DNA of 27,921 bases. Origin: a virus. Below the pieces are notes generated by a model. It saw only the letters and a list, made by a program, of their open reading frames with translations. It did no database searches and had not been told where the DNA came from. Below, in pieces: positions 5,440 through 21,654 of this stretch (positions are counted from its first letter, which is position 1; every line of letters begins with the position of its first letter). The stretch spans positions 1 through 27,921 of the IMG/VR virus record IMGVR_UViG_3300035185_000015; one strand, given 5' to 3'. The position numbers were made by a program, and so were the translations under genes.

Positions 5440-6712
5440 CAGGCTCCGGTACAATGATCCCTTCGTCATCCCCGAAGCGATCATCTTGGTTTGGCGAGGG
5501 TTCCAGTTTCTTGAGCATGTCTTGGACAGTGCTCTCGGGATCCTCCGCAGGCTTCTTCGCTGCGGGACCCTCCGAGATCAAGGTGGATAGGTCTCGGGCC
5601 AGAAAGTAGTGAGCCTCCTCGGGCTTCCTCCTCCTTTTGCGCGAGCCCCCGTAGCGACGGAAGAACTCATCGGCGAACTCGGGGTCCATGGTGTGCTCCG
5701 TGTCCCCTTGACGCGCCCAAGCGATCTCCGGCTTCGCTCCATCGTTGTTGAACAAGAAGGCGCTGTCCGCCAGCTTGGACAGCTGCGAGAAATTCCGCAT
5801 CACCGTCTTGTGATTGTCCCGAATGAACTTCTCGGGGACATGGCGTCCCGACTCAGCTCCCCTTTTTTTGGCACGCGCTACCGCGTCCTCTACGTCACTC
5901 ACGACAGGCATGAGGAGCTGTACGTGATAGCCAGCGTCCTGAAGCTGACCCATCCTGTGCATGTAGGACCCCGCGTAGCGTCCCGTTCCATCGAGCACCA
6001 TGTTCTTCCGCTGCTTACGAGCGATGTCACGGAGGCGACTGGCTAGCTCACCACTCTCCTTGTGGACGTAGTTCGCTGCGTTCGCATCCCCCTTGCTCAC
6101 GAGGTCTTGGTACTCAGGAAGCATCTCCTTGATGTTGTCCGCATCGACCTTGACGAACTTCTTGTTACTGATTCCCTTCGTGAGTTGACCTTTGCCTGTA
6201 GCGGGACCGCCCATCATCATTATGGCTACAGGGGTTTTGTCCTTGGGCACTGGCTTCGTCGTCGACAGAAAGTGCTGGAAGATCTCACGATGCAGCGCCT
6301 TTCGTTCTGGCGTCCACTGACCATGCCGCTTGTACTTCTCCTCGGTACTTTGAGGCTCGTGCTTGTACTTCTTCCACTCCTTACCAGGAAGGATCGGAGC
6401 CAGCTCTCCTATGTGCGGAGGCTTGTTTGGCTTCGGCGACTTGTAGTTGGGGTACTGCTTTGCGTACTTCGCTGGAAGCTGAACGGGCTTGGGAGGTGGA
6501 GTACCTTTGACTTTCTTCGAAGAAGGCTTCTTCGCCTTCTGCTGAGGAGCCGGACCTTTGTCAGGTTTCTTCACCAGCTTCCAAACGCCGTGCTTGACCT
6601 TCTGCCAGATTCCCGTCTTCCGCTTCGACTTGGTACCAATGGGCGCACCACCGTCTCCCTCTGCTTCGTACAGAGAACGCAGATCCTCCAGAAGGGGTTC
6701 GAGGTGAGCCAT
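5423..6712 (-). CDS. Zeta-toxin-like P-loop kinase with basic N-terminal extension (429 aa)
   Basis: Residues about 155-330 match the zeta toxin / P-loop kinase plan: VAIMMMGGPATGKGQ is a Walker A loop (GxxxxGKG, without the usual Ser/Thr after Lys), followed by VKVDADNIKEMLPEYQ (the D-D--K--LPEY element of zeta proteins), MVLDGTGRY and VARAKKRGAESGRHVP (R-R--E-GR-VP, as in zeta family members). Zeta toxins phosphorylate UDP-N-acetylglucosamine; related phage domains are mostly uncharacterised. The first 150 residues are very rich in Lys and Pro, the C-terminal 90 acidic and basic by turns. Typical zeta proteins are about 270-290 residues. No epsilon-like antitoxin was recognised next to it. 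Placement among virion genes raises the possibility of a packaged effector. Confidence 0.78.
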   Translation of the reverse strand: MAHLEPLLEDLRSLYEAEGDGGAPIGTKSKRKTGIWQKVKHGVWKLVKKPDKGPAPQQKAKKPSSKKVKGTPPPKPVQLPAKYAKQYPNYKSPKPNKPPHIGELAPILPGKEWKKYKHEPQSTEEKYKRHGQWTPERKALHREIFQHFLSTTKPVPKDKTPVAIMMMGGPATGKGQLTKGISNKKFVKVDADNIKEMLPEYQDLVSKGDANAANYVHKESGELASRLRDIARKQRKNMVLDGTGRYAGSYMHRMGQLQDAGYHVQLLMPVVSDVEDAVARAKKRGAESGRHVPEKFIRDNHKTVMRNFSQLSKLADSAFLFNNDGAKPEIAWARQGDTEHTMDPEFADEFFRRYGGSRKRRRKPEEAHYFLARDLSTLISEGPAAKKPAEDPESTVQDMLKKLEPSPNQDDRFGDDEGIIVPEPDDSAI

Positions 6713-6714
6713 GC

Positions 6715-6978
6715 TCAGCTACCGCAGCCGCAATCCTCGTGCTTGCTCTGAGCCAGAGGACCCTTAGTCGCTCCGGTCTTACCGTACTTGGTACACCCCG
6801 GGTAGTCCGGGTTCTTGTTGGTGCAGTAGATTTGCCAAGCGACGCGCGCGCAGTACTCCTTGCCCTTGTTGGGAGACTTTTTGCGGCAGTCCTTGTAGTA
6901 GCGCTCGACGTCCGCAGGCTTCTCTTCTTGGATGCCGGTGACTCCTCGCGCTTCTTGGATCAAATCATTCAGGGACAT
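6715..6978 (-). CDS. Small cysteine-rich unknown protein (87 aa)
   Basis: The ATG at 6978 is chosen because a strong ribosome binding site, AAGGAGG, lies 5 bases upstream. The protein begins with a helix (MSLNDLIQEARGVTG), then carries spaced cysteines (YYKDCRKKSPNKGKEYCARV, AWQIYCTNKNPDYPGCTKYG) and ends CGCGS. The repeated 'KS-NKGK-YCARVAWQIYC' element looks like a conserved small phage protein that I cannot name. Strong initiation suggests it is made in quantity. The zeta-like gene begins two bases after its stop. Confidence 0.72.
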   Translation of the reverse strand: MSLNDLIQEARGVTGIQEEKPADVERYYKDCRKKSPNKGKEYCARVAWQIYCTNKNPDYPGCTKYGKTGATKGPLAQSKHEDCGCGS

Positions 6979-6989
6979 GGAAACCTCCT

Positions 6990-7595
6990 TCAGTCCATCG
7001 CGCAGAACTGATGGTACTCGATCTTCTCTTTCCTCATACCCATGAGCACTTGGTAGAAAGTCATGCTCTTGAGCTTGCGCTCGTTGTCTTTCACCCAGCG
7101 GTAGAACTGCGGAATGCTCCGCTTCCCTCCCTTGATCGCTGGGATGCACGTAGGCTCGTTGTTGACATCATCCTTGTCCTTCACCCGAAAGGAGCCGTAC
7201 TCCGCTTCGATGAAGACGTGATCGCCGTCGATGACGACTGGCTTGAACCCCGCAGGAGTGACGTCGACACCCCGAAGTTGCTGCTCGTCGTACTTGATGC
7301 CCTGATCCTTCCGGGCTTTGAGAGCACGCTCCATCTGAGCTGGGCTGACGTTCTTCGTAACCAGCTCTTCGAACTCATCTGCGATCTCGTTGGGGTCGAC
7401 GATGTGCTGGTAGTCCAGATCATACAACGAGTACTGCATGACCTTCTTGCCTCGCTTCCCCGCGTTCGTGAGGTCCGTGATCTGAACGCTGGAAGCGTAG
7501 CGGTGCATACGCCACTTGTCGCTCTCCGTCGTATCCCCCATTCGCAGCTCGTGCAGCTCGCGAAAGCCTGACTCGATGAGTTGTTCCAGCAGCAT
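6990..7595 (-). CDS. Unknown protein (201 aa)
   Basis: The ATG at 7595 forms TAATG with the upstream stop and has GGAGG 7 bases ahead; another ATG two codons upstream is too close to that GGAGG. The protein starts with a helix (MLLEQLIESGFRELHELRMG), then has a mixed alpha/beta body (SVQITDLTNAGKRGKKVMQY; YQHIVDPNEIADEFEELVTK), a beta-rich stretch (KPVVIDGDHVFIEAEYGSFR) and an aromatic C-terminus. No catalytic motif was found and no family recognised. Its overlap with a structural-type gene suggests a virion or assembly role. Confidence 0.7.
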   Translation of the reverse strand: MLLEQLIESGFRELHELRMGDTTESDKWRMHRYASSVQITDLTNAGKRGKKVMQYSLYDLDYQHIVDPNEIADEFEELVTKNVSPAQMERALKARKDQGIKYDEQQLRGVDVTPAGFKPVVIDGDHVFIEAEYGSFRVKDKDDVNNEPTCIPAIKGGKRSIPQFYRWVKDNERKLKSMTFYQVLMGMRKEKIEYHQFCAMD

Positions 7596-11252: not shown

Positions 11253-11281
11253 AACATACGGCCGAGTCACTCGGTAGCCAA
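11253..11281 (-). promoter_or_regulatory. Weak promoter candidate and dyad between structural genes
   Basis: On the minus strand TTGGCT (11281-11276) and TATGTT (11258-11253) are 17 bases apart, each 4 of 6 matches. The spacer contains the dyad CCGAG-TGA-CTCGG (11274-11262), centred on the stop codon of the Baseplate_J gene. The 64-base gap to the next gene is large for this window, and a leader of about 40 bases with GGAGGA follows. The dyad could also be an mRNA stabilising hairpin. Confidence 0.35.
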
Positions 11282-13570
11282 ACCCAGAATTCCTCGGCCT
11301 GTCTGTTCCGGTGTAACCGAGATGTCGTCCCCTGTGTTCTTCGTGATCACTTCGCTGTCCTCGATGATCAGGTTTCCCTCCGTGTCAAGCTTGTCGGTGA
11401 GGACCGTAGAGCTTCCGAAAACTTTGTACCCGGAGATCGTTACGTTGGTGAAAACCACGCCTTCTAGGGCCTTGATAGCTTCCACGAGATCCGAAACGTA
11501 GAGGTCGACACCGAAAGATCGATCGATGAGAACACCGTCGATGGCGGTCTCCGCCGCAGTGCGCGTCTGCTCCAAGGAGTAGCCCTGGGAGACTCCGATC
11601 CGTACGACGAGCACCGGGAAGATGAGGAAGTCTTCTCCAGAAACGACCCTTACCGTTTGCGTCACTTCCTTGCGTTCGGTGAGGTAGGTCTGAAGCGAAT
11701 CGACCAGACCGTTGGATGGGGCCGTGTAGAACCCGGCCGAGTCTCGAACCAGGATCGGAACGGTTACTAGATTTGCTTGGCAGTCCGCAGCCAGGATTCC
11801 ATCGACGTGGTTGTCGATGTTCGTGATGGCGACGGACACCGTCGCCGCTGCGTTGTTGGCAAGATCTGGATCCAGAGCATCCGCAACCCCCGCCAAGTCA
11901 GAGTTGAAGGTCAAGAACAGACCCGTAGAAGACGCAGGCGTACCTTCGTCATTGGTTCCGATAGTGCTAACCAAGCTCGTTACGTGGTCTCCGATGATCT
12001 TTAGGTACGTATCCGTAGCATCGAACTGGGTATCCGAAGCGTCCGAACCGATCTTATCCGTCTCGTCCTTGACGGAACTCAATGTAGCGAGCTGAGTATC
12101 GATGGCTGCACGAAGCGTCGTGACGTCGGTGTCCGCCGTCGTGAGAATGGCGACGACGTCATCGACCTGAGGTTGCGTCAAGTCTCCCGTACCGGAGGGT
12201 CCGTAGGCTTCCACCTTATCTTGAACCTGGTCCAACTTGGACGCGATCTCGAAGGTCAGACCACGGTTCCCGCGCAAACTGGTAGCCGTGGTATCTACGT
12301 TGGCGTCGATGACATCCGCGCTCGCGCCTATGTTGGCCACCGTATCGCTGATGCTTTCCGAACCAGCGTTCAGCTCGTTTAGCATGAGGAACAGGATCGA
12401 CGACGTACCGAACCCAGCCGCTACACGATCTGTATCAGAAGCCGAAGTAGCCAGGAGCGCATCTCGAATAGTTTCCACTTCCGGAGCGAGCGCATTCGAT
12501 ATGGCGTTTAGCTGAGCCTTCAAGAACAAGTCGTTGTCGGAAGAACGTGAAGAGATGGCCTGAGCCACGGCTACCCGACCAAACACAGGATCTGCGTAGG
12601 AGCCCGCCAGCGCTGTGTAGTCGTTCCTTGTGATAGCTACACGGCGGCTGTTGAACACACGCCCTGCAAATGCTTTGGCGTGAGCCAATGTCTCGGGGTC
12701 ATCCCCTCCGGAGGACTTCGCCGGATTGCTGACGCTGAGCGTGATGGTGTCGCCAGCCACAACTAGGGAGGTAGTCTCCTCTAGGATCGATTGCCGCTCG
12801 ACGTTCCCTCCTTTTCCTGAAGTGGCCACGTAGGTAACGATGATGGTGGCATTCGCTCTCGGAATATTCCCGATGACGCCATCACCGAAACGAACGGTAG
12901 GGGGGTCGTCATTGAAAGCAACCTCGAATTGATCTGTAGCTCCGAAGTCGAGGAAGTCGGTTTCCTCAAAGTCCGCACCGTCTACAGTACATGTAACAGT
13001 CCCGGCCGCGGGGTACTTGCCTTCAGGAACGCGACGAAGCTCGAACACTTGATTCGGCGTACCGTCAGACGCGAAGGTCTCGGTGACCAGAGTGCCTTCC
13101 GACACGGGCACCTGCTTGATCGTTCCCGCAGCTTGCTCCGCAGGAGTCCAAATCACTTCCTCTGTGGCTCTGTAGATGAGGTCGTTGGGGCCGTTGAATT
13201 GGAAGCCCTCCGGGATCGGTACGTTGATGGCTAACGGATCCGAAGTGATCGACACATCGAGGTCCGTAGACGATGATACGGCGCCGCCCATCTTGTAGCC
13301 GAGCTGCCTCGTCAATCGAGACACTCCGCGACGTGTACGAGCAGTGGACAGATAGACTTCTGTAGCGCGTCGATCGAGATAGAAGCTCAGCGTATCGAGG
13401 CCGAACGAGATGACGTCCAAGAGCATCATGCCCAAGGAGGCGAGTGCGAAGTCGTTGTAGTCCGCAGCGAACTTGACCTGAATCCTCGCACGCAGATCGT
13501 CTACGTGAGTGTCGAAGTCGAACCCCGCGTAACGTACACGGTTCAGGGTGCTCAAACTGATGTCGGCCAC
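11267..13570 (-). CDS. Baseplate_J-like wedge protein with large helical insertion (767 aa)
   Basis: The GTG at 13570 has TAGGAG upstream. The N-terminus (residues 1-100) has the usual helical wedge arm (ASLGMMLLDVISFGLDTLSF). Residues about 225-250 hold VRFGDGVIGNIPRANATIIV-TY, the signature of Baseplate_J proteins (P2 gpJ, Mu gp47, T4 gp6). The C-terminal domain (SLQTYLTERKEVTQTVRVVS; VLVVRIGVSQGYSLEQTRTA) also fits. These proteins form the wedges around the hub and fire the sheath. About 250 residues, roughly 348-600, are an Asp/Ala/Thr-rich helical insertion absent from short family members of 300-400 residues. Confidence 0.88.
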   Translation of the reverse strand: MADISLSTLNRVRYAGFDFDTHVDDLRARIQVKFAADYNDFALASLGMMLLDVISFGLDTLSFYLDRRATEVYLSTARTRRGVSRLTRQLGYKMGGAVSSSTDLDVSITSDPLAINVPIPEGFQFNGPNDLIYRATEEVIWTPAEQAAGTIKQVPVSEGTLVTETFASDGTPNQVFELRRVPEGKYPAAGTVTCTVDGADFEETDFLDFGATDQFEVAFNDDPPTVRFGDGVIGNIPRANATIIVTYVATSGKGGNVERQSILEETTSLVVAGDTITLSVSNPAKSSGGDDPETLAHAKAFAGRVFNSRRVAITRNDYTALAGSYADPVFGRVAVAQAISSRSSDNDLFLKAQLNAISNALAPEVETIRDALLATSASDTDRVAAGFGTSSILFLMLNELNAGSESISDTVANIGASADVIDANVDTTATSLRGNRGLTFEIASKLDQVQDKVEAYGPSGTGDLTQPQVDDVVAILTTADTDVTTLRAAIDTQLATLSSVKDETDKIGSDASDTQFDATDTYLKIIGDHVTSLVSTIGTNDEGTPASSTGLFLTFNSDLAGVADALDPDLANNAAATVSVAITNIDNHVDGILAADCQANLVTVPILVRDSAGFYTAPSNGLVDSLQTYLTERKEVTQTVRVVSGEDFLIFPVLVVRIGVSQGYSLEQTRTAAETAIDGVLIDRSFGVDLYVSDLVEAIKALEGVVFTNVTISGYKVFGSSTVLTDKLDTEGNLIIEDSEVITKNTGDDISVTPEQTGRGILGLATE

Positions 13571-13581
13571 TTGAAAAACTC

Positions 13582-13977
13582 CTACACTTGGACGGAAACC
13601 TCGTCACGCTTCTGCGTTGCCGGAACAACGTAGTGCACGGTGACGATCACAGAATCTAAATCCCTCGGGTCCCCCGACTTGTCAGACTTGACTCGCTCGA
13701 CGACGATGGCTTGTACCATCACTCGCGGTTCCAAGCGCGCAATGGAATTGCCCACGTTGGTTCGGATCTGGGCTGCCAGCAGCTGGTCGTTCGTTTCGAA
13801 CACGAAGGATCTGGCACCGGAACCGACCGTAGGACGCATCAGACGTTCGCCCGGCGAGGTCAGGATGATCTGTTTCAGACTCTCTTTGATCAAGTCGTCG
13901 TCCGTTGCCGGAGCGGGAAGCTGCACCCCCGACTTCCGGAAGGGGAACGAGATACCTGTGTAGATCGGAGTAGCCAT
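13582..13977 (-). CDS. gp25-like baseplate wedge protein (131 aa)
   Basis: The core LIKESLKQIILTSPGERLMR-PTVGSGARSFVFE is the gp25/GpW-like signature (I---L-T--GER---P--G----F-FE); this E-R pair is the most conserved part of the sheath-initiator family. N-terminal ISFPFRKS and C-terminal VIVTVHYVVPATQKRDEVSV complete the fold, and 131 residues is typical. In T4 and in contractile injection systems gp25 sits in the wedge and nucleates the sheath. The ATG at 13977 has GAGG 7 bases upstream. It lies immediately before Baseplate_J, the standard order. Confidence 0.9.
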   Translation of the reverse strand: MATPIYTGISFPFRKSGVQLPAPATDDDLIKESLKQIILTSPGERLMRPTVGSGARSFVFETNDQLLAAQIRTNVGNSIARLEPRVMVQAIVVERVKSDKSGDPRDLDSVIVTVHYVVPATQKRDEVSVQV

Positions 13978-13993
13978 TCAGAACCTCAGTGTA

Positions 13994-14362
13994 CTACGCC
14001 GCTGCGTCCAACGGACAGGCTGGGAGAGACGGAAGTGCAGGAAGAGCTGGGAAAGCGGGAAGTCCAGGAAGAGCCGGGAGCGCGGGCAGCTTCAGCGTAG
14101 GCAGTGCAATGCTGGGGAAAGGTAGGTCGATCGTCGGTATCGTCGGTAGTGTGGGGAGAGCAGGAAGCGCGGGCAGTCCAGGCAATCCCGGGAGTGCAGG
14201 AAGTTTTAGCGTGGGAAGCGAGATCGAAGGAAAGGGCAGATCGATCGTGGGTAGCGTCGGCAACGCGGGCAGAGCAGGCAATACCGGGAGCCCAGGCAAA
14301 CCGGGCAGCGCCGGCAGCTTCAACGACGGCGGGAAGGGTGGAAGAGTGCACAGCGAAGCCAT
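13994..14362 (-). CDS. (Leu-Pro-X)n triplet-repeat protein in the baseplate cluster (122 aa)
   Basis: About 35 of 122 residues are proline, mostly every third residue: LPALPGLPGLPVLPALPALP and similar. Two full 38-residue units (residues 14-51 and 52-89) are nearly identical; each ends in TIDLPFPSI-LPT, and a third unit is partial. Period-3 proline predicts a polyproline II helix with leucines on one edge, not a globular fold. The gene starts at ATG 14362, three bases after the upstream stop and without a clear ribosome binding site, so coupled translation is likely. It sits between the spike and gp25 genes. No PAAR tip gene is visible, so a spike-associated or tail-lumen role is conceivable, but the family is unknown to me. 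Confidence 0.7.
   Translation of the reverse strand: MASLCTLPPFPPSLKLPALPGLPGLPVLPALPALPTLPTIDLPFPSISLPTLKLPALPGLPGLPALPALPTLPTIPTIDLPFPSIALPTLKLPALPALPGLPAFPALPALPSLPACPLDAAA
14096..14323 (-). repeat. Two 114-bp tandem in-frame repeats encoding 38-residue Leu-Pro units
   Basis: Positions 14323-14210 and 14209-14096 on the minus strand encode two nearly identical 38-residue units, both starting LKLPALPGLPGLP and ending IDLPFPSI-LPT. A third, degenerate unit follows from 14095. The units suggest growth by tandem duplication. On the opposite strand the same triplets read as Gly-X-Y, a by-product of Pro codons. Confidence 0.8.
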
Positions 14363-14365
14363 TCA

Positions 14366-14881
14366 TCAGAGGATCGGAATGGGTGCAGGAGCAGCGGGAG
14401 GAACAGAACCGAGAACAGTGCCCCCGACGAGAGCGGGAGCAATAGCTCCCGTGATAGCCGCAGCCGCCGTCACAGGGTCTTTGACCAAAGCATTGCTTGT
14501 GAAAACAGCGGTCAACGCAGCTCCAATAGAGGCTACTCCAGGTGAAGGGGTACCGCCGGGAACGAGCACTATGGGAGCAGGTGGCGGTGTGGTGAAGATC
14601 GTTGGAGAGGAAAGAAGGAGCTGGGTCCAAAAAGCAGCGACGCCTGCCTGAACCGCAGCCGCAGCAGAAGCTGCTGTTCCCGAAGGAACAAACATCGCCA
14701 GTAGTCCTGCGTCCATGGCACTCAAGGGTCCCGAGAGTCCTCCAGAAGGAATTCCGGAGGATCCTACCACGGCTCCTTGAAACGCCGCTTCCCAAGCCGA
14801 CTTGAAAGCGGCAAGTGCAGTCGCAGCGTCCTGCTTAGGAGGCTGAAAAGCCGAGTCGAGAGAAGCAGATACGAGCGGCAC
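14366..14881 (-). CDS. Hydrophobic Ala/Pro/Gly-rich baseplate-cluster protein (171 aa)
   Basis: The GTG at 14881 shares a base with the spike gene's stop (TAGTG), and AAAGATGAAG precedes it; longer versions would overlap the spike gene extensively. The protein alternates alanine-rich helices (AATALAAFKSAWEAAFQGAV; ASAAAAVQAGVAAFWTQLLL) with Pro/Gly-rich turns (TTPPPAPIVLVPGGTPSPGV) and has few charged residues after about residue 30. This could suit the inside of the tail or contact with a membrane. Lying directly after the spike gene, it may be a spike tip, a plug or an injected protein; nothing in the sequence decides this. Confidence 0.6.
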   Translation of the reverse strand: MPLVSASLDSAFQPPKQDAATALAAFKSAWEAAFQGAVVGSSGIPSGGLSGPLSAMDAGLLAMFVPSGTAASAAAAVQAGVAAFWTQLLLSSPTIFTTPPPAPIVLVPGGTPSPGVASIGAALTAVFTSNALVKDPVTAAAAITGAIAPALVGGTVLGSVPPAAPAPIPIL

Positions 14882-15849
14882 TACTTCATCTTTACCGACT
14901 GAGATTTGATCGTCGGGGTTGGAGGAACCGCGGGAGGGCCGGAGGGTCCGGTGCCAGTCGGATGTATATGCGTCGACAGCCAAGCTAGGAGGGGTTCCCA
15001 GTTAACACCAGAGAGAACCGCCCCATCGGACAAAAAGATCCCGGCTCCCTTGAGGTTGATGTTCGGTGCGCTCAGGTTGATGTTCTTCGACGCGATGACG
15101 CTGAAGTCCCCCTTGTTGTTGAGCTGAACCGAGGTTGCTCCGCCTGAGGTCGAGTCTATGAGCGAGATTCCCTTCGCGCTCATCGTGAAGAGATTCCCCG
15201 TTCCGTCCTGAATGAGGATCTGCTTGTTCTTCCGATCGAGTGCGACCTTTGATCCGTCCGGACCGATGAGCTGTACACCGTCCTTTGTGAAGTCGAGGAC
15301 GCCGATGAGGTCTCCAGCCGCAGGGCTCTGAGCAACTTTCTGAGGATCGCTCTTCGCTGGGTCTCCGTCAGCAATCTGATGCCAGAGAATGCGAACCTGT
15401 TCCTTGCCCGGCTCGTCGTTGAACAGGATGAGGTGACCCGCACGGGATCGAAAACCTCTCTTCTGCGGAGTCTCATCGTCGGCGTAACCGAACTCCGTAG
15501 GCGGAGGAATCTTTCCATCCGACTTGGTGTACCAGCCGCCCCAATACGTCTTCGGTTTCCCCGGGTTGCCTTGATCGAAGGCTACCCGAACTACGGAGCC
15601 TTGAAGGGGAGGGTTGAACCAACCCATGCGGTCCCCGGTAACATCCGTCGCAGGGGATACCCACACAGGAAGAGCCTTCTGCGGGTCGTGTCCAACCTCT
15701 GGACACGAGATCTGAACACGCCCTCGCGTCTCGGGATCCTTGTTGTTCAAAACGAAGGCTCGGTAGTTGCCGTAGTACGTCTTGAAGGCACGTTCGATAC
15801 CGTGGTCCTTTACGACTTCCCGCAGCCGTTCGACTTCCGTGACGCTCAT
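14881..15849 (-). CDS. Baseplate spike protein, gp5/gpV/VgrG-like (322 aa)
   Basis: Residues about 23-110 form the OB-fold of phage spikes: YYGNYRAFVLNNKDPETRGR-VQISCPEVG, then LPVWVSPATD and PPLQGSVVRVAFDQGNPGKP-YWGG, matching gp5N/VgrG (G-Y-G-V--N-DP---GRV-V--P). Residues about 190-285 are the repetitive beta part (KQILIQDGTGNLFTMSAKGI; KNINLSAPNINLKGAGIFLS), a trimeric needle. The end carries THIHPTGTGPSGPP, the typical H-H-P segment after the needle. No lysozyme domain is visible. The protein pierces the outer membrane at contraction. ATG at 15849, overlapping the hub stop (ATGA). Confidence 0.9.
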   Translation of the reverse strand: MSVTEVERLREVVKDHGIERAFKTYYGNYRAFVLNNKDPETRGRVQISCPEVGHDPQKALPVWVSPATDVTGDRMGWFNPPLQGSVVRVAFDQGNPGKPKTYWGGWYTKSDGKIPPPTEFGYADDETPQKRGFRSRAGHLILFNDEPGKEQVRILWHQIADGDPAKSDPQKVAQSPAAGDLIGVLDFTKDGVQLIGPDGSKVALDRKNKQILIQDGTGNLFTMSAKGISLIDSTSGGATSVQLNNKGDFSVIASKNINLSAPNINLKGAGIFLSDGAVLSGVNWEPLLAWLSTHIHPTGTGPSGPPAVPPTPTIKSQSVKMK

Positions 15850-17225
15850 CCTGCCTCCGGTTGACGTTCAGTAGCGTCTCCTTGTTCCTCGTGCTCCTCG
15901 TTTCCTACCTGACCAGCAAGCTCTATAGCTTTTGCGGTGTTCGCTGCGGAGTTGGAACGAGCTTCGATCGTTGTAGAAAAGCCTCCTGTACCCAAGCGGT
16001 GGACAATCTTGTGGACACCGTAGTTGTAGTCCCAGACAGGACCCAAACCCTGGAAGCGGATCACTTCTCCTGGGAGTATCTCCGGAACACCGAAGGACTC
16101 GATTTCGATGGGAATCCCCAACCCGTCCGCAGAGATCTTAGCCTCTGCACGAGCACGATCCTTCTCGACATCGGTCGCTTGATCCGCTGGATAAGGGTCC
16201 TCTCCGTCCGCAGTGTCCCGGTTACCTCCTGGATTATCGCCATCTTCTTCGGGAGGGCCTCCTCCTCCTCCAGTGCGTGCTTCGGGTTGACCTCCCTCAT
16301 CATCCCCGTCCGCAGACACGAATACATTGAAAGCATCGCCAGAGGCATCGTTGACGCCCTTCAACACCATACCCCTGATGTTGTTAGGCAAGTAGACATC
16401 GTTGGTAGGACTGGAGAAGTTCAAGACCGGGAAAACACCACTCGCAGGACCTATTTTTCCTGCTTCTTCACCGTCACTCTGGGAAAATCCAGGAGGACCG
16501 CTCATCAAGACGAATTTGTAGCGGGGTCGTCCGGTGAATCGCGTATCGGCTGGGAAGATACTCAGCAACTCTCCAGTGTAGATCATGTAACACCGGGCTT
16601 CCTTCACCAAGCGCATGACGATGTGCCAATCGAAAATCCATCCCGGAGAAACGGTGATCTCCTCCTCGAACATCTTCTGAAACGCCAATGAGTCGGGAGC
16701 CCTTCGAATCTCATCGAAGTCGGGTTCGACTCCGCGTGGGTTCCGCACACTAGGTCCAGATAAGAGGGTTCGAATGATATCCTCCCGAGTACCCGTAAGC
16801 ACGGCCGCGTGCCCCTGGCGAGTAGCACTGAAACCGTAGACGCCTTCAGACACCAGATTGATCGTAGTCTCTACACCGATCTGAATGTCAGGGTTCAACA
16901 GGAGACCAACGTACGGAGGTGATAGAAAAGCTCGATTCCCCACCGTATAGCCAAACTGACACGTCAACCGCGTGTGATTGTACTCAAGAATCGGATGGTT
17001 CAGAAAAGCTACGGCAGCTGTGTGGGGAAGCACCAGGGTGGCCGTCATTCGAGCCGGGTACCCAAGACCGATCTCGATGATCAGCTCCTGCACTACCGCT
17101 AGAGAAGGCAAGCCTTCTCCGGTTGGAGCCTCGCTCGCTTTGGACCACAAGGGGATCCTGTCACCCTCTTTGGAGATCAAGGCGCAGGACATGACGGGAT
17201 TACCGAAGTCGTATTCGGCAGTCAC
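15846..17225 (-). CDS. Baseplate hub protein, gp27/gpD-like (459 aa)
   Basis: The position directly before the spike, the size and the layout fit the hub that joins tube and spike. The N-terminal half is beta-rich and tube-like (MTATLVLPHTAAVAFLNHPI; TRLTCQFGYTVGNRAFLSPP-YVGLLL). The middle carries ISPGWIFDWHIVMRLVKEAR-type sequence, and the C-terminus ends with a small beta domain (GEVIRFQGLGPVWDYNYGVH-KIVHRLGTGGFSTTIEA) as in gpD-like proteins. An acidic Gly-rich stretch, residues about 300-350 (GGGGGPPEEDGDNPGGNRDT), interrupts the structured parts and is probably a flexible surface loop. GTG at 17225, overlapping the LysM gene's stop (GTGA). Confidence 0.82.
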   Translation of the reverse strand: MTAEYDFGNPVMSCALISKEGDRIPLWSKASEAPTGEGLPSLAVVQELIIEIGLGYPARMTATLVLPHTAAVAFLNHPILEYNHTRLTCQFGYTVGNRAFLSPPYVGLLLNPDIQIGVETTINLVSEGVYGFSATRQGHAAVLTGTREDIIRTLLSGPSVRNPRGVEPDFDEIRRAPDSLAFQKMFEEEITVSPGWIFDWHIVMRLVKEARCYMIYTGELLSIFPADTRFTGRPRYKFVLMSGPPGFSQSDGEEAGKIGPASGVFPVLNFSSPTNDVYLPNNIRGMVLKGVNDASGDAFNVFVSADGDDEGGQPEARTGGGGGPPEEDGDNPGGNRDTADGEDPYPADQATDVEKDRARAEAKISADGLGIPIEIESFGVPEILPGEVIRFQGLGPVWDYNYGVHKIVHRLGTGGFSTTIEARSNSAANTAKAIELAGQVGNEEHEEQGDATERQPEAG

Positions 17226-17539
17226 CGCTTACGCACCTTCCGAAAGTAGTCGCCCTTGATGTACGTAGGAGAAGGAATCTTCAGCTTATCTCCAACGTTC
17301 AATTGAGTAGGAAAGATCTCCAGGTCGTTCGCTAGAGCAATGACGAACCATAGCTCGGGAGCCCCGTAGTACTGCACCGCCAGGGTATCGATGCGATCTA
17401 CACTGGTCACCTGGTGCAGCTTGTCGTCACCGCGTTCCTCGGGAACAGGTAGATCTTCGAAGTCCCAGAACTCATACCCGTCAACAGTAACCAGGGGGTG
17501 GAACTGGAGACGACTCTGACGACGAATACGAACAGCCAC
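17222..17539 (-). CDS. LysM-containing tail/baseplate protein, gpX/gp53-like (105 aa)
   Basis: Residues about 41-90 form a LysM-like module: HQVTSVDRIDTLAVQYYGAP-ELWFVIALAND-LEIFP-LNVGDKLKIP, matching the pattern D-ID-LA---YG----W--IA--N-----L--G--L-IP. In phages and contractile systems this small protein (P2 gpX, T4 gp53 domain) binds baseplate partners near the hub, not peptidoglycan. A basic N-terminus (RIRRQSRLQF) and C-terminus flank it. GTG at 17539 with TAGGAG upstream. The place, between tape measure and hub, is canonical. Confidence 0.9.
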   Translation of the reverse strand: MAVRIRRQSRLQFHPLVTVDGYEFWDFEDLPVPEERGDDKLHQVTSVDRIDTLAVQYYGAPELWFVIALANDLEIFPTQLNVGDKLKIPSPTYIKGDYFRKVRKR

Positions 17540-17547
17540 GATGACTC

Positions 17548-20500
17548 CTACTGCGTACCTGAGGTGCTAGTGGTGCCATCAGCCGAGCGTCGAAGACGCA
17601 ACAGGGCGTCGGCACGGCTCTGGCTTCGTTGTTTGGCCGAACCCGCCGGAGTAGAAGCCGCAGCACTCGGTTCCAACGAATTTAGCTGACTCCGAAGCAT
17701 GGAGAATTCCTGCTCCAGTACTTTGCGCATGCCGTTCTTGCTGTCCGTGTACCAACTGGGCCAATTGACCGCCTTTGCCAAACCCTGAAGCTCAGGAGGG
17801 ATCTGCATGGGCACGGTCTCGGCTTTCTCGCGAACAGCTTCCTCCGAAGCACGGGCTGCACGAGTACGAGCAGCTTCGAGGTGCTGGAAAGCCTGCTTGA
17901 TCTGAGTGAGCTGCGCGACCGTCGCGCCGATGTCCTCCGAAAGGATCGTAGTCAAGGACTGAGCGTGGTTCGCGATAGCCAAAAAGGCCGAAGCAAAGGA
18001 CTGCTGAAGCTGAGACAAGAAGTCCTTGAAGTGCTTCATCTCACTCTGGACAAACGTCTCTGTCTTCTTCTGAAGCATGTCGAAGGACTTCTGGAAGACT
18101 CCGAAGATCCCTTCGTTCATCTGCTTCAAGACAGCGATGGATCTGGAACCCATTCCGTCGATCGCGTCTACGGACATGGCCATGTCGTTCTCGATGTCAT
18201 CGTGAATCGAGTGGCGAAACAGCTTGTCCACCCAGCCGTCGATCGAGGAGAAGAGACCCGATAGAGGACCGATAGCCTCGTCTAGGCTCTCCCCAATCTT
18301 TCGGACAGAGGCTACGACAGCCTGTTTGATGTTGCTCCACAGGTTCCCGAAGAACCCCTGCGCCTTGCCCCACTCAGCCTTGATGTCGTCCCAGACCCCG
18401 AGGACGATGCCCTTCAGCTTATTGAAGGGCTCTTGCACGCCTTCCCACACGGTGTCGAATAGTCCCACGAAGAAGGTACTGGCACCTTCCCACGTAGACT
18501 TGATGCTTGCCCACACACCCGAGACCTTGGAGAGGATCCTATTGAACGTGCCTGCAATGGACTTGTAGATACCCGCCCCAATGCCTTCGAAGAAGGAAGT
18601 AGCCCGGTTCCAGGCGGATCGAATGCTCTCCCATACTCCAAGGACGATACGCTTGAGCGAGGTCCACGTCTTGGAGCCGTCCTTGAAGATGGCAGTAAAC
18701 AGCTTGGCGAAGAATTTGTAGTAGATATCCAGCGCCTTCACCAGCACCTTCTGTATCGTCTTCAGAACGGAGCGGAAAGCCTCGTAGGCACCATCGATAA
18801 ACCCGATCAAGGGGTCTAGGATATAAGCTGCGGATGGGAAGTATTGGACGATCCAATCTCGAATGCCTTTGAGGAGGCCAACGAAAACTGTTTGGATCAG
18901 ACCAATCAGCCCGATGGCTAACCCTAGGAGAGCATTGACGAGTACAGGAATCGACTTCCAAATGAAGGGGACGCCCTCAACAAATAGCGTACCGAGAGCA
19001 TCCAACAAGAAGGGGACTAGCTTCTGAACAGCATCCGAGAGAATCGGACCCAGGTCGTCGGCTATAGTGGTCAGTTTGCCCAGCAGCATCGTAAGACCGT
19101 CACGGATTACCGGCAACATGGTCATCACTAGATCGGCTATACCCGTGGCCAGTTCGCCAATCATGGGAGCGAGCATGGGAAGAGCCGCCCGCAACAACTC
19201 CATGAGGGCGTCCGCTAAGATCCCAGCACGTTCGATAAGGATTTCGCCCAGCTGCTTGACGAAGTTGACGATCTTGTCGACAGGGATCTGATTCGCTAGT
19301 TCGCCTAGCTTACCGAAGATCGTAGAGAAGACTTCTTTGAAGTCGATGCCGCCCAGAACCTCGTTGACCTTCCCTTGAGCGGATAGGAACCCCTCTAGAA
19401 GAAATCCAAGGGCTTTCTTCCCACCCTCCAAAAGGGTCGTGCCCACCTTCGACCAGTCAATGCTGTTGAAGATGTCCACGAGAGCGTTACCGATGGTCGA
19501 CAATACGGCGGGTGCGACCTCCACTAGCTTGTGAAAGGCCATCACCATGAAGTCGATGCCTTTGCGCAACGTCTTGCCCGTCTCGTTGAACGCCGTTTGG
19601 AAAGCAGTGCTCCAATCCTCCCCAGCGAGCTTCGCTTTGAAGAGGTTGATAGCAAAGAGTCCTAGGATCGAAACAACCGGACCAAGAACTGCGGTCAACC
19701 CAGGGAAGAAGAGGATCGCTCCTCCAATGAGCCCGAGCATGGGTCCGAGCTGGCGGACGATCTCCCCCAGAAGAATTCCAGCGCCTTGCATCTCCTTCGG
19801 CAAGAGACCAGCAGCACCCAGCCGGTGCACATCCCTCAACTTGTCAACGAACTGCCCTAGTGGGCCTCCATCCTTGGAGGTTTCGTCGAGGATCTTGTTG
19901 AACTTCGACGCGCTGTCCGTGAAGTCCTTGAGGAAGGTCTTGGACGCCTTTCCACTAGCGCGGAAGTGCGCAATGGCGGACTCCTTCGCAAGATCGAAAG
20001 ATTCGGCTAGGGTTCTACCTGTACTGAACCCTTCCTTACCGAGCTTGGCAACACTCTCTGTCGCCTTCTCGGTGATCTTCATCTGCCCCTTCGCTTCCTC
20101 ACTACCCTTCGCGAGGAAGTTCACGAGCACATCAGCATTGGCGATACCCGCCTTCTCCAGGCGCGCTCTGAGGAAGTTCATGACCTGATCCATGTCCGCG
20201 CCGCTCTTCTCGGCGTTCTTGACAACCTGATCCAAGCCTTCCACCAGACCGGCAGGACCCTGAGACATCAGGTCCATCGCCGAGTCGAAGTCCCCACCGA
20301 AGATGGCTAGCTCCTTCATGAAGCTCGGCAAGCCTTCACCGACACCAGCGAAGAGGTTTGCGAACTCCTTCTGAGCCCCCACCTGAGCATCGGCCAGACC
20401 CATGGAAATGGAACGAGCCTCATCCGCGGAGAGCCCGAACTTACCGAGACCCGCAGCCAGGGAAGCTGTCTGTCGAGCAAAGGCGGCGAGTTGTTTCGGG

Positions 20501-21654
20501 TCCAGCTCGCGTCCCATCAGAGCCGACTTGGTCTGGATGTTCTTGAGCATTTCCGGCAGAGACGATAGGGCTCCTCCCACGTCCCGCGTTGCCTGACCCA
20601 TAGAGGTGAAGCTAGCTACGACGCCATTGATGTCTTCGCTCGCGAGACCCAGAGACTTCATCTGCTGTAGCTGTTCGCCGAACGCCTTGGCGTTGAGGCC
20701 GGTAACCTCGGATAGCTTCGCTAGATCAGAAGCCGACTTGATGCCCACCGCTCCCATCAGTTCCGCCTGCCGGTTGAAGGCGACGATAGATTGAGTTGCT
20801 TGCTCAGCACCGATGTTCAAGCTGATCGCCATACTCGACGCTTGTGCGGAGACCTTCTTCATCTCCTTGCCGGTCAGCCCGAGGTTTACTGCTGTCTGTT
20901 TTGCGCTCTTCTCGTTGGCCACGCCCATGGCTTCTAAAGAGGTGGTCAGGTTCATACCCTCTGAACCGAGACCTCCTAGAGCACCTGAGATCTTTCCGAG
21001 AGTCCCTAGGGAGATTGCCGAGATCAAACCTTGCAGCTTATTGACTTTTAAGATCTGATTGAGCTTACGCACGACCTCCTTGATCTCTCCGAAGCCTCCA
21101 GCGATCACCTCCTGACCCTTACGTATGTCTTTCGCACGACGTCCGAAGAAGAACCCGGTCTTCTTCAAAGTATCGAACACTCCTATGTTGAAGGACTTGG
21201 ATACGCCCAAGCTGGCCTTACCCAAGTTCATCAGCGCGGTCTTTCCCGCACCTACACCCGCAACCGCCTTGTCGAGAGCGTTGGACCACTTGGCGATGTC
21301 TTCACCAGCGCCCATCCCCATCCTCTCGAACTGATCCCCCATTGCATCGAGACCCTGCCCGATGGATTGCTCCATGCTCTCACTCAACGTGAGAGCGTGA
21401 TCGCCAACGGAAGATGTCACCTGCTCCGACACCTCTTCGACGCCACGGAAGTGCTGCGCGATGATGTCGAGGGACGCATTCAATTGCATCATGGAGGTTT
21501 CGAGCTTCCCGAAACCCGCCTCGCTGACGGAACTGACGCGATTGAGACTTTCAGTGATCTGAAAGAACCCACTCGTGAGCTTCTCCTGGAACTTGACGAG
21601 TCCCTGGTCCTTCGCTCCGAAGGAGAACCCCAATCCAAGGAAATTCAGCGCCAC
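17548..21654 (-). CDS. Tail tape measure protein (1368 aa)
   Basis: The longest frame of the window, in the classical place after the chaperone and before the LysM/hub genes. It consists mainly of helices rich in Ala, Gly and Lys. N-terminal residues 1-350 have the pattern of phage tape measure core domains (GVANEKSAKQTAVNLGLTGK; VASFTSMGQATRDVGGALSS). Hydrophobic stretches at about 630-670 and 895-935 (LLGLAIGLIGLIQTVFVGLL) could be membrane segments for DNA injection. Three 40-residue repeats lie at residues 1000-1119. It sets tail length; at about 0.15 nm per residue the tail would be near 200 nm. GTG at 21654 with a weak ribosome binding site. Confidence 0.92.
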   Translation of the reverse strand: MALNFLGLGFSFGAKDQGLVKFQEKLTSGFFQITESLNRVSSVSEAGFGKLETSMMQLNASLDIIAQHFRGVEEVSEQVTSSVGDHALTLSESMEQSIGQGLDAMGDQFERMGMGAGEDIAKWSNALDKAVAGVGAGKTALMNLGKASLGVSKSFNIGVFDTLKKTGFFFGRRAKDIRKGQEVIAGGFGEIKEVVRKLNQILKVNKLQGLISAISLGTLGKISGALGGLGSEGMNLTTSLEAMGVANEKSAKQTAVNLGLTGKEMKKVSAQASSMAISLNIGAEQATQSIVAFNRQAELMGAVGIKSASDLAKLSEVTGLNAKAFGEQLQQMKSLGLASEDINGVVASFTSMGQATRDVGGALSSLPEMLKNIQTKSALMGRELDPKQLAAFARQTASLAAGLGKFGLSADEARSISMGLADAQVGAQKEFANLFAGVGEGLPSFMKELAIFGGDFDSAMDLMSQGPAGLVEGLDQVVKNAEKSGADMDQVMNFLRARLEKAGIANADVLVNFLAKGSEEAKGQMKITEKATESVAKLGKEGFSTGRTLAESFDLAKESAIAHFRASGKASKTFLKDFTDSASKFNKILDETSKDGGPLGQFVDKLRDVHRLGAAGLLPKEMQGAGILLGEIVRQLGPMLGLIGGAILFFPGLTAVLGPVVSILGLFAINLFKAKLAGEDWSTAFQTAFNETGKTLRKGIDFMVMAFHKLVEVAPAVLSTIGNALVDIFNSIDWSKVGTTLLEGGKKALGFLLEGFLSAQGKVNEVLGGIDFKEVFSTIFGKLGELANQIPVDKIVNFVKQLGEILIERAGILADALMELLRAALPMLAPMIGELATGIADLVMTMLPVIRDGLTMLLGKLTTIADDLGPILSDAVQKLVPFLLDALGTLFVEGVPFIWKSIPVLVNALLGLAIGLIGLIQTVFVGLLKGIRDWIVQYFPSAAYILDPLIGFIDGAYEAFRSVLKTIQKVLVKALDIYYKFFAKLFTAIFKDGSKTWTSLKRIVLGVWESIRSAWNRATSFFEGIGAGIYKSIAGTFNRILSKVSGVWASIKSTWEGASTFFVGLFDTVWEGVQEPFNKLKGIVLGVWDDIKAEWGKAQGFFGNLWSNIKQAVVASVRKIGESLDEAIGPLSGLFSSIDGWVDKLFRHSIHDDIENDMAMSVDAIDGMGSRSIAVLKQMNEGIFGVFQKSFDMLQKKTETFVQSEMKHFKDFLSQLQQSFASAFLAIANHAQSLTTILSEDIGATVAQLTQIKQAFQHLEAARTRAARASEEAVREKAETVPMQIPPELQGLAKAVNWPSWYTDSKNGMRKVLEQEFSMLRSQLNSLEPSAAASTPAGSAKQRSQSRADALLRLRRSADGTTSTSGTQ
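18298..18657 (-). repeat. Three 40-residue tandem repeats in the tape measure protein
   Basis: Residues 1000-1119 comprise three consecutive 40-residue units aligned on GVW-(D/E/A)-I-(K/R)--W------FF--(L/I/G), for example IVLGVWESIRSAWNRATSFF, KVSGVWASIKSTWEGASTFF and IVLGVWDDIKAEWGKAQGFF. Trp/Phe-containing repeats of this kind are known in tape measure proteins. At the DNA level they have clearly diverged. Confidence 0.8.

Follow-up and report, generated by a model that had tools for sequence, protein, structure and literature searches.

The window analyzed here, a 27.9-kb fragment of an uncultured virus (27,921 nucleotides), encodes among its baseplate genes a small protein dominated by Leu-Pro-X triplets (LP), which raises the question of whether such a peptide is a real gene product and, if so, what it contributes to the tail. 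The original prediction placed the gene inside a baseplate cluster, between a spike-adjacent protein and gp25, and profile matches to PF04717 in the central spike protein V and to PF04965 in gp25 confirmed this setting (Table 1).

Table 1. Positions of the LP gene, its internal features and its neighbors in the window.
Feature	Position	Strand	Basis
Baseplate J/gp6-like wedge protein	11267..13570	-	phrog_219, E=5e-31
Baseplate wedge gp25	13582..13977	-	PF04965, E=2.9e-16
LP gene, three-unit Leu/Pro-rich protein, 122 aa	13994..14362	-	ORF, homologue alignment, codon-level selection
LP unit 3, residues 81-118	14009..14122	-	38-residue period
LP Cys116, C-terminal, C-P-x-D	14015..14017	-	Invariant in 10 aligned and also in 42 aligned members
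LP unit 2, residues 43-80	14123..14236	-	38-residue period
LP unit 1, residues 5-42	14237..14350	-	38-residue period
LP Cys5, N-terminal, S-x-C	14348..14350	-	Invariant in 10 aligned and also in 42 aligned members
Ala/Pro-rich orphan ORF between V and LP	14366..14881	-	Putative GTG start
Baseplate central spike V, OB domain and C-terminal HxH	14881..15849	-	PF04717, E=2.4e-11; alignment
HxH motif of V, His294-Ile-His296	14962..14970	-	Invariant in 11 V proteins, likewise in all 19 aligned
Hub, gpD/gp27-like, upstream of V	15846..17225	-	phrog_52, E=1.5e-5; conserved in relatives
Small baseplate protein	17222-17539	-	
Tape measure	17548-21654	-	

The LP protein starts with ATG and contains 35 prolines, 32 leucines and 27 Leu-Pro dipeptides. 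Proline recurs at position +3 after 24 of the 35 prolines, while 5,000 shuffles averaged 9.6 and never exceeded 17, so the predicted count of about 35 prolines, mostly with period 3, held up. The expectation of two units plus a partial third had to be revised, as the protein consists of three full 38-residue units, with 27/38 identities between units 1 and 2, 29/38 between units 2 and 3, and 23/38 between units 1 and 3. Self-identity is 0.68 at a lag of 38 residues, compared with about 0.01 at lags of 37 and 39. The two cysteines, Cys5 and Cys116, are separated by 111 residues, or 3 x 38 - 3. They thus lie three residues apart in the frame of the unit, and a bond between both would be expected to close a three-unit ring.

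A repetitive peptide of this kind could be an artefact, either a repeat arisen by chance or the antisense image of a collagen-like (GXX) gene carried by the other strand. The plus strand does contain an open frame (13989-14651) with collagen-like glycines that overlaps the LP gene, and an open scan of viral contigs for LPx5 returned mostly unrelated matches, many of which resemble, by eye, the antisense of collagen-like repeats. However, the codon pattern refutes this reading, to which we give practically no chance. Between the window and its homologue L140, substitutions in the LP frame fall 26/7/66 on the three codon positions over 112 codons, with 57 codons carrying synonymous-only changes and 20 nonsynonymous ones. 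Third positions also diverge far more than second positions in 20 other pairs of close homologues, and synonymous-only codon changes outnumber nonsynonymous ones in every pair, from 47:40 to 66:17. Since it is mainly the third positions of the minus-strand frame that diverge, coding is assigned to the (Leu-Pro-X) frame, and the LP peptide is under purifying selection. Furthermore, start, stop, cysteines and neighbors are kept in homologues at 58 to 81% identity, while antisense frames are broken by stops in several of them. That homologues might keep the opposite-strand frame instead, a case raised with the original prediction, is therefore not what we observed; the collagen-like frame on the plus strand arises as a side effect of the LPx codons. 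A collagen-like phage protein was likewise rejected, since the GXX frame is antisense and not conserved; the LP sense frame has Pro/Leu triplets and only scattered glycines, without glycine at every third residue.

We gathered loci of the same operon type in three ways, searching with V, with a DNA pattern encoding FPPxLxxPxxPxxP and with a J profile. Nine loci encode full-length LP proteins in the above identity range, all of which retain Ser3, Cys5, Cys116 and Pro117; L168 carries a far more divergent LP with the same plan. A second DNA pattern covered the C-terminal LP motif alone, without neighbor information, and its counts are lower bounds; searches not anchored on context gave at least about 50 distinct members. 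Their signature is M-[ST]-x-C-x-[FIL]-P at the N terminus, three Pro-rich units and a C-terminal P-x-C-P-[LIA]-D, and both cysteines together with a small number of prolines are invariant across 42 aligned members. The LP of the window fits this definition, having S/T-x-C, repeated Pro-rich units, C-P-x-D and a gene behind the spike, albeit with the orphan intervening.

Among the matches listed, V, gp25 or J is present at 34 of 38 LP loci and at none of the 76 other pattern matches. The commonest order, on one strand, is V, LP, zero to two genes, gp25 and J; the LP start lies 0 to 40 bp from the V stop in most loci, often overlapping it, while the separation from gp25 or J reaches about 600 bp. 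The link between LP and the spike that had been predicted is thus borne out at the gene level, and the suggested check on relatives and gene neighborhoods revealed LP homologues in related phages with the same baseplate neighbors. Among the matches listed, the four exceptions to this context are L177, L184, L229 and L255, in each of which the spike-slot gene ahead of LP shows neither a recognizable V domain nor an HxH motif. In L177, LP lies between a Mu GpP-like hub and a Baseplate_J protein, with an unrecognized gene of about 240 aa in the spike slot; L184 and L255 resemble it by inspection. These four loci, which lack a recognized HxH spike, weaken the notion that LP occurs only with HxH spikes.

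A stricter LP DNA pattern was run over 84,980 bacterial and archaeal genomes, giving 12 matches, 9 of which are members of the LP family. They belong to Lysobacter (three), Sphingomonas (two), Anaerolineae, Chloroflexi, Actinomycetota and Rhodothermaceae. The J profile, run against bacterial genomes, confirmed no LP locus where the DNA pattern succeeded. All nine loci have gp25 or J downstream of LP; V was found by profile in the fetched stretch of eight, and for the ninth (L290) in the extended contig (L303). The Anaerolineae locus also carries sheath and CIS_tube genes, which identifies it as a chromosomal contractile injection cluster. LP is a widespread and conserved protein family; many phages that have not been cultured encode it beside the spike gene, as do some bacterial injection machines. 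As side observations, V, LP, gp25 and J occur in chromosomal contractile injection clusters at L301, L302 (the Anaerolineae contig), L297 and L299, in genomes without PAAR, and the Anaerolineae cluster, with its sheath, CIS_tube and Tail_P2_I genes, has a nine-PASTA protein and an AAA ATPase nearby.

Several features of the surrounding genes vary. The orphan that intervenes between spike and LP in the window, given as an unnamed 205-aa protein, is accessory, being missing from several relatives, and belongs to no family in Pfam, PHROGs or NCBIfam. A relative of it with 60% identity occurs in L124, and L095, L133, L135, L123 and L155-L167 have positional counterparts; in several LP-less relatives (e.g., L123), an orphan-type protein is the sole gene in the slot. 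In L095, a 184-aa ORF (6673-7227) that looks by eye like a GIY-YIG homing endonuclease lies between the Ala-rich gene and LP. In L168 (4528-5949), an intein (PF14890, Intein_splicing, E=1.2e-16) that includes an HNH endonuclease (PF13392) splits the gp25 gene ahead of the conserved MRPxFG motif. In L123 (8133-8525), the J frame reaches a stop at about 8135 with similarity continuing to 8525, reflecting either a sequencing error or a real split gene.

The LP family has no relative in Pfam, PHROGs, NCBIfam or PDB sequences. Neither the window protein nor ten divergent members matched Pfam, and weak matches to phrog_31248 and phrog_6793, both of unknown function, look compositional. A tblastn search of LP proteins against named phages gave no match, an uninformative outcome with the low-complexity filter on, and the V proteins of LP loci found only remote spikes there. 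We found no description of the family in the open-access literature, the scope of our search, so the statement that no such family had been described in the baseplate locus stands within the libraries and literature searched, and LP is apparently a previously undescribed spike partner. AlphaFold2 monomers, computed for the window LP with 10 sequences and for L192 with 42 sequences, were of low confidence (pLDDT 56 and 64; pTM 0.10 and 0.17) and gave no confirmation of the suggested rod or bundle. They speak neither for nor against a role at the spike, as the same would be expected of a component that folds only on a trimeric partner.

The repeat plan of the family is predominantly three-fold. 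The unit period ranges from 32 to 42 aa across members, and the distance from the first to the last cysteine is about three periods (within about 7 residues) in 46 of 51 distinct members, of which 42 were counted by script and 4 by eye where the script had locked onto a double period. L285 and L296 consist of two units, an apparently two-unit form being that of Lysobacter Root76, and the related L191, L241 and L250 of one, so a rule of exactly three units always is rejected; members with more than three units were not seen among the 51. Assembly collapse is unlikely to explain L285 and L296, as the longest exact internal repeat is only 15 to 16 bp, and these two members not only speak against a strict three-unit rule but also count against LP as a companion of the spike.

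The original prediction also suggested that LP could stand in for a conventional tip, because no PAAR gene was visible. The latter was corroborated, as none of 36 virus records (25 with LP and 11 LP-less relatives, many of them fragments) has PAAR over the Pfam cutoff. It is absent, at the same cutoff, from eight of the nine LP-bearing bacterial genomes as well; the ninth has one PAAR, on another contig, in a 1,520-aa protein. LP itself does not match PF05488 (PAAR), PF14107 (DUF4280) or PF13665 (DUF4150 PIPY), whereas the DUF4280-like or PAAR neighbors of other spikes do. As it fails the defining sequence tests of PAAR, we do not file it there, though its role may be similar.

In LP-less bacterial relatives with the same V-gp25-J order, collected by V profile, the slot behind the spike is often held by a DUF4280-like or PAAR protein, and we compared spike and slot across 96 distinct loci. 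A C-terminal HxH spike accompanies LP at 43 of 44 loci, the exception being L217 (HGAGGH), while all 24 DUF4280/PAAR loci have a spike without HxH; no locus of the 96 combines LP with PAAR or DUF4280. Fisher's test gives P ~1e-17 for this LP/HxH split, a value that is not a true probability, given that the loci are related and that most of the V profile came from LP loci. LP is missing from about a third of the HxH spikes in this set: 21 have neither LP nor PAAR/DUF4280, one of which (L202) is really a partial LP locus, leaving 20. The motif binds iron at the spike end of P2, phi92 and R-pyocin, and the same has been deduced for Milano (PMC10811340, PMC6116203). The stand-in claim therefore did not survive as stated: LP-adjacent spikes already carry HxH, and other HxH spikes manage without LP and PAAR. 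This leads us to reject simple PAAR replacement as the whole story and to regard LP as an added partner of the HxH-type spike; spikes of this type, with which LP is paired, are considered able to do without a separate tip. As a general rule across the same 96 loci, PAAR or DUF4280 fills the next slot behind 0 of 64 HxH and 24 of 32 non-HxH V spikes.

PAAR proteins are single chains of three-fold internal design that sit on a trimeric spike. Like the PAAR tips (PF05488; T4 gp5.4, type VI secretion system [T6SS] PAAR, and Afp10/Pvc10 of extracellular contractile injection systems), LP is encoded by a small gene near spike and gp25; unlike them, it has no PAAR motif and is made up of Pro/Leu triplet units where PAAR forms a beta cone. 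DUF4280-like proteins hold exactly the LP slot in V-gp25-J relatives, but the resemblance of LP to DUF4280/DUF4150 (PIPY) is limited to prolines, and in the 96-locus set LP is found with HxH spikes, whereas PAAR/DUF4280 occurs only with spikes lacking the motif. With polyproline-II bundle proteins such as snow-flea antifreeze protein and S16-type gp38 adhesins, LP shares triplet repeats that would be expected to give extended left-handed helices; those proteins are glycine rich, however, while LP is dominated by Pro and Leu and matches no PDB sequence. The LP-adjacent V proteins share with the iron-apex spikes (P2 gpV, phi92, Mu gp45, R-pyocin PA0616 and Milano gp27) the C-terminal HxH that binds Fe in the latter (PMC10811340, PMC6116203). 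No LP-type partner of those spikes has been described in the open-access literature searched.

Considering these data, we propose that LP accompanies the trimeric central spike V as a structural component, a reading to which we give about even chances. It is favored by the V-adjacent context, the three-fold unit plan, the slot that relatives fill with DUF4280/PAAR instead, the lack of PAAR over the cutoff in the virus records and in eight of nine genomes, and purifying selection; against it stand the HxH spikes thought to be self-sufficient in P2 and Mu, the 20 HxH spikes with neither LP nor PAAR, the four loci without a detectable V domain or HxH, and the lack of a confident AlphaFold2 fold. 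In such a companion, the (LPx)n stretches would form extended polyproline-II segments, and the three units of a single chain, or three chains of one unit each, would encircle the three-fold spike or sit on it as a cap, most likely at the distal end that bears HxH. The outermost cysteines of a chain, neighbors in the unit frame, could complete the ring through a disulfide or through a metal bound by both. One LP chain might then imitate a trimer, comparable to the capping of trimeric VgrG by one PAAR chain, and one-unit members may restore the same symmetry as a homotrimer. LP could thereby make the spike more rigid or more pointed, or protect it up to the moment at which it is forced through the envelope. 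On this reading, LP is a three-fold polyproline-II companion of the spike, probably at its distal end, a location and a fold that we infer; nothing was found in support of the tube-lumen location that had also been suggested. That it serves as a polyproline-II puncturing part, a covalently closable pseudotrimer on iron-type (HxH) spikes in a widespread class of phage and bacterial contractile tails and unrelated to PAAR, is a possibility that we advance tentatively.

Three other arrangements have to be weighed against the companion of V. The repeats could build a homotrimeric rod, in which three parallel identical chains bundle in polyproline-II form, a cysteine knot securing either end, and unit number determines how long a thin extension of the spike becomes. 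Cysteines at both ends and the existence of one-, two- and three-unit members agree with this, repeat number being free to vary in a rod, but three units prevail in 46 of the 51 members despite about 30% variation in unit length, and none has four or more; we consider the rod unlikely. A collagen helix is not expected in it, as there is no glycine at every third position. It is also quite improbable, in our estimate, that LP is an assembly factor or chaperone translated together with V, delaying the folding of its C terminus and not retained in the finished particle. Dedicated T6SS spike chaperones exist (DUF2169, PMC11883445), and a low-complexity protein with no predicted fold, encoded immediately behind V in most loci and often overlapping it, could be one of them; yet the constraints on unit number and cysteines suggest a structural role, and relatives fill the slot with PAAR/DUF4280, which are particle components.

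Similarly slim chances attach to an internal hub part, with LP acting not as a tip but as extended filler among spike, hub and tape-measure end or as a linker to gp25. LP is encoded beside gp25 as well, and Pro-rich stretches in extended form can pass between subunits. Contacts rich in proline are present in the Milano baseplate (PMC10811340). The immediate neighbor in most loci is nevertheless V, with gp25 and J at the larger distances given above, and the three-fold design fits V and the hub but not the six-fold gp25.

How contractile tails get through envelopes and transport cargo is determined by the far end of the spike. To our knowledge, the tips of contractile tails are PAAR, PAAR-like or a bare iron apex. 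Lysobacter and Sphingomonas strains, such as Lysobacter sp. cf310 and Sphingomonas sp. Leaf34, which carry LP in chromosomal clusters, are culturable hosts of the family. If LP is indeed a companion of the spike, a conserved, non-PAAR, three-fold Pro-rich partner with its own slot rule would represent a new building principle; if it also serves as a polyproline-II puncturing part, LP would be the first known load-bearing polyproline part of contractile tails.
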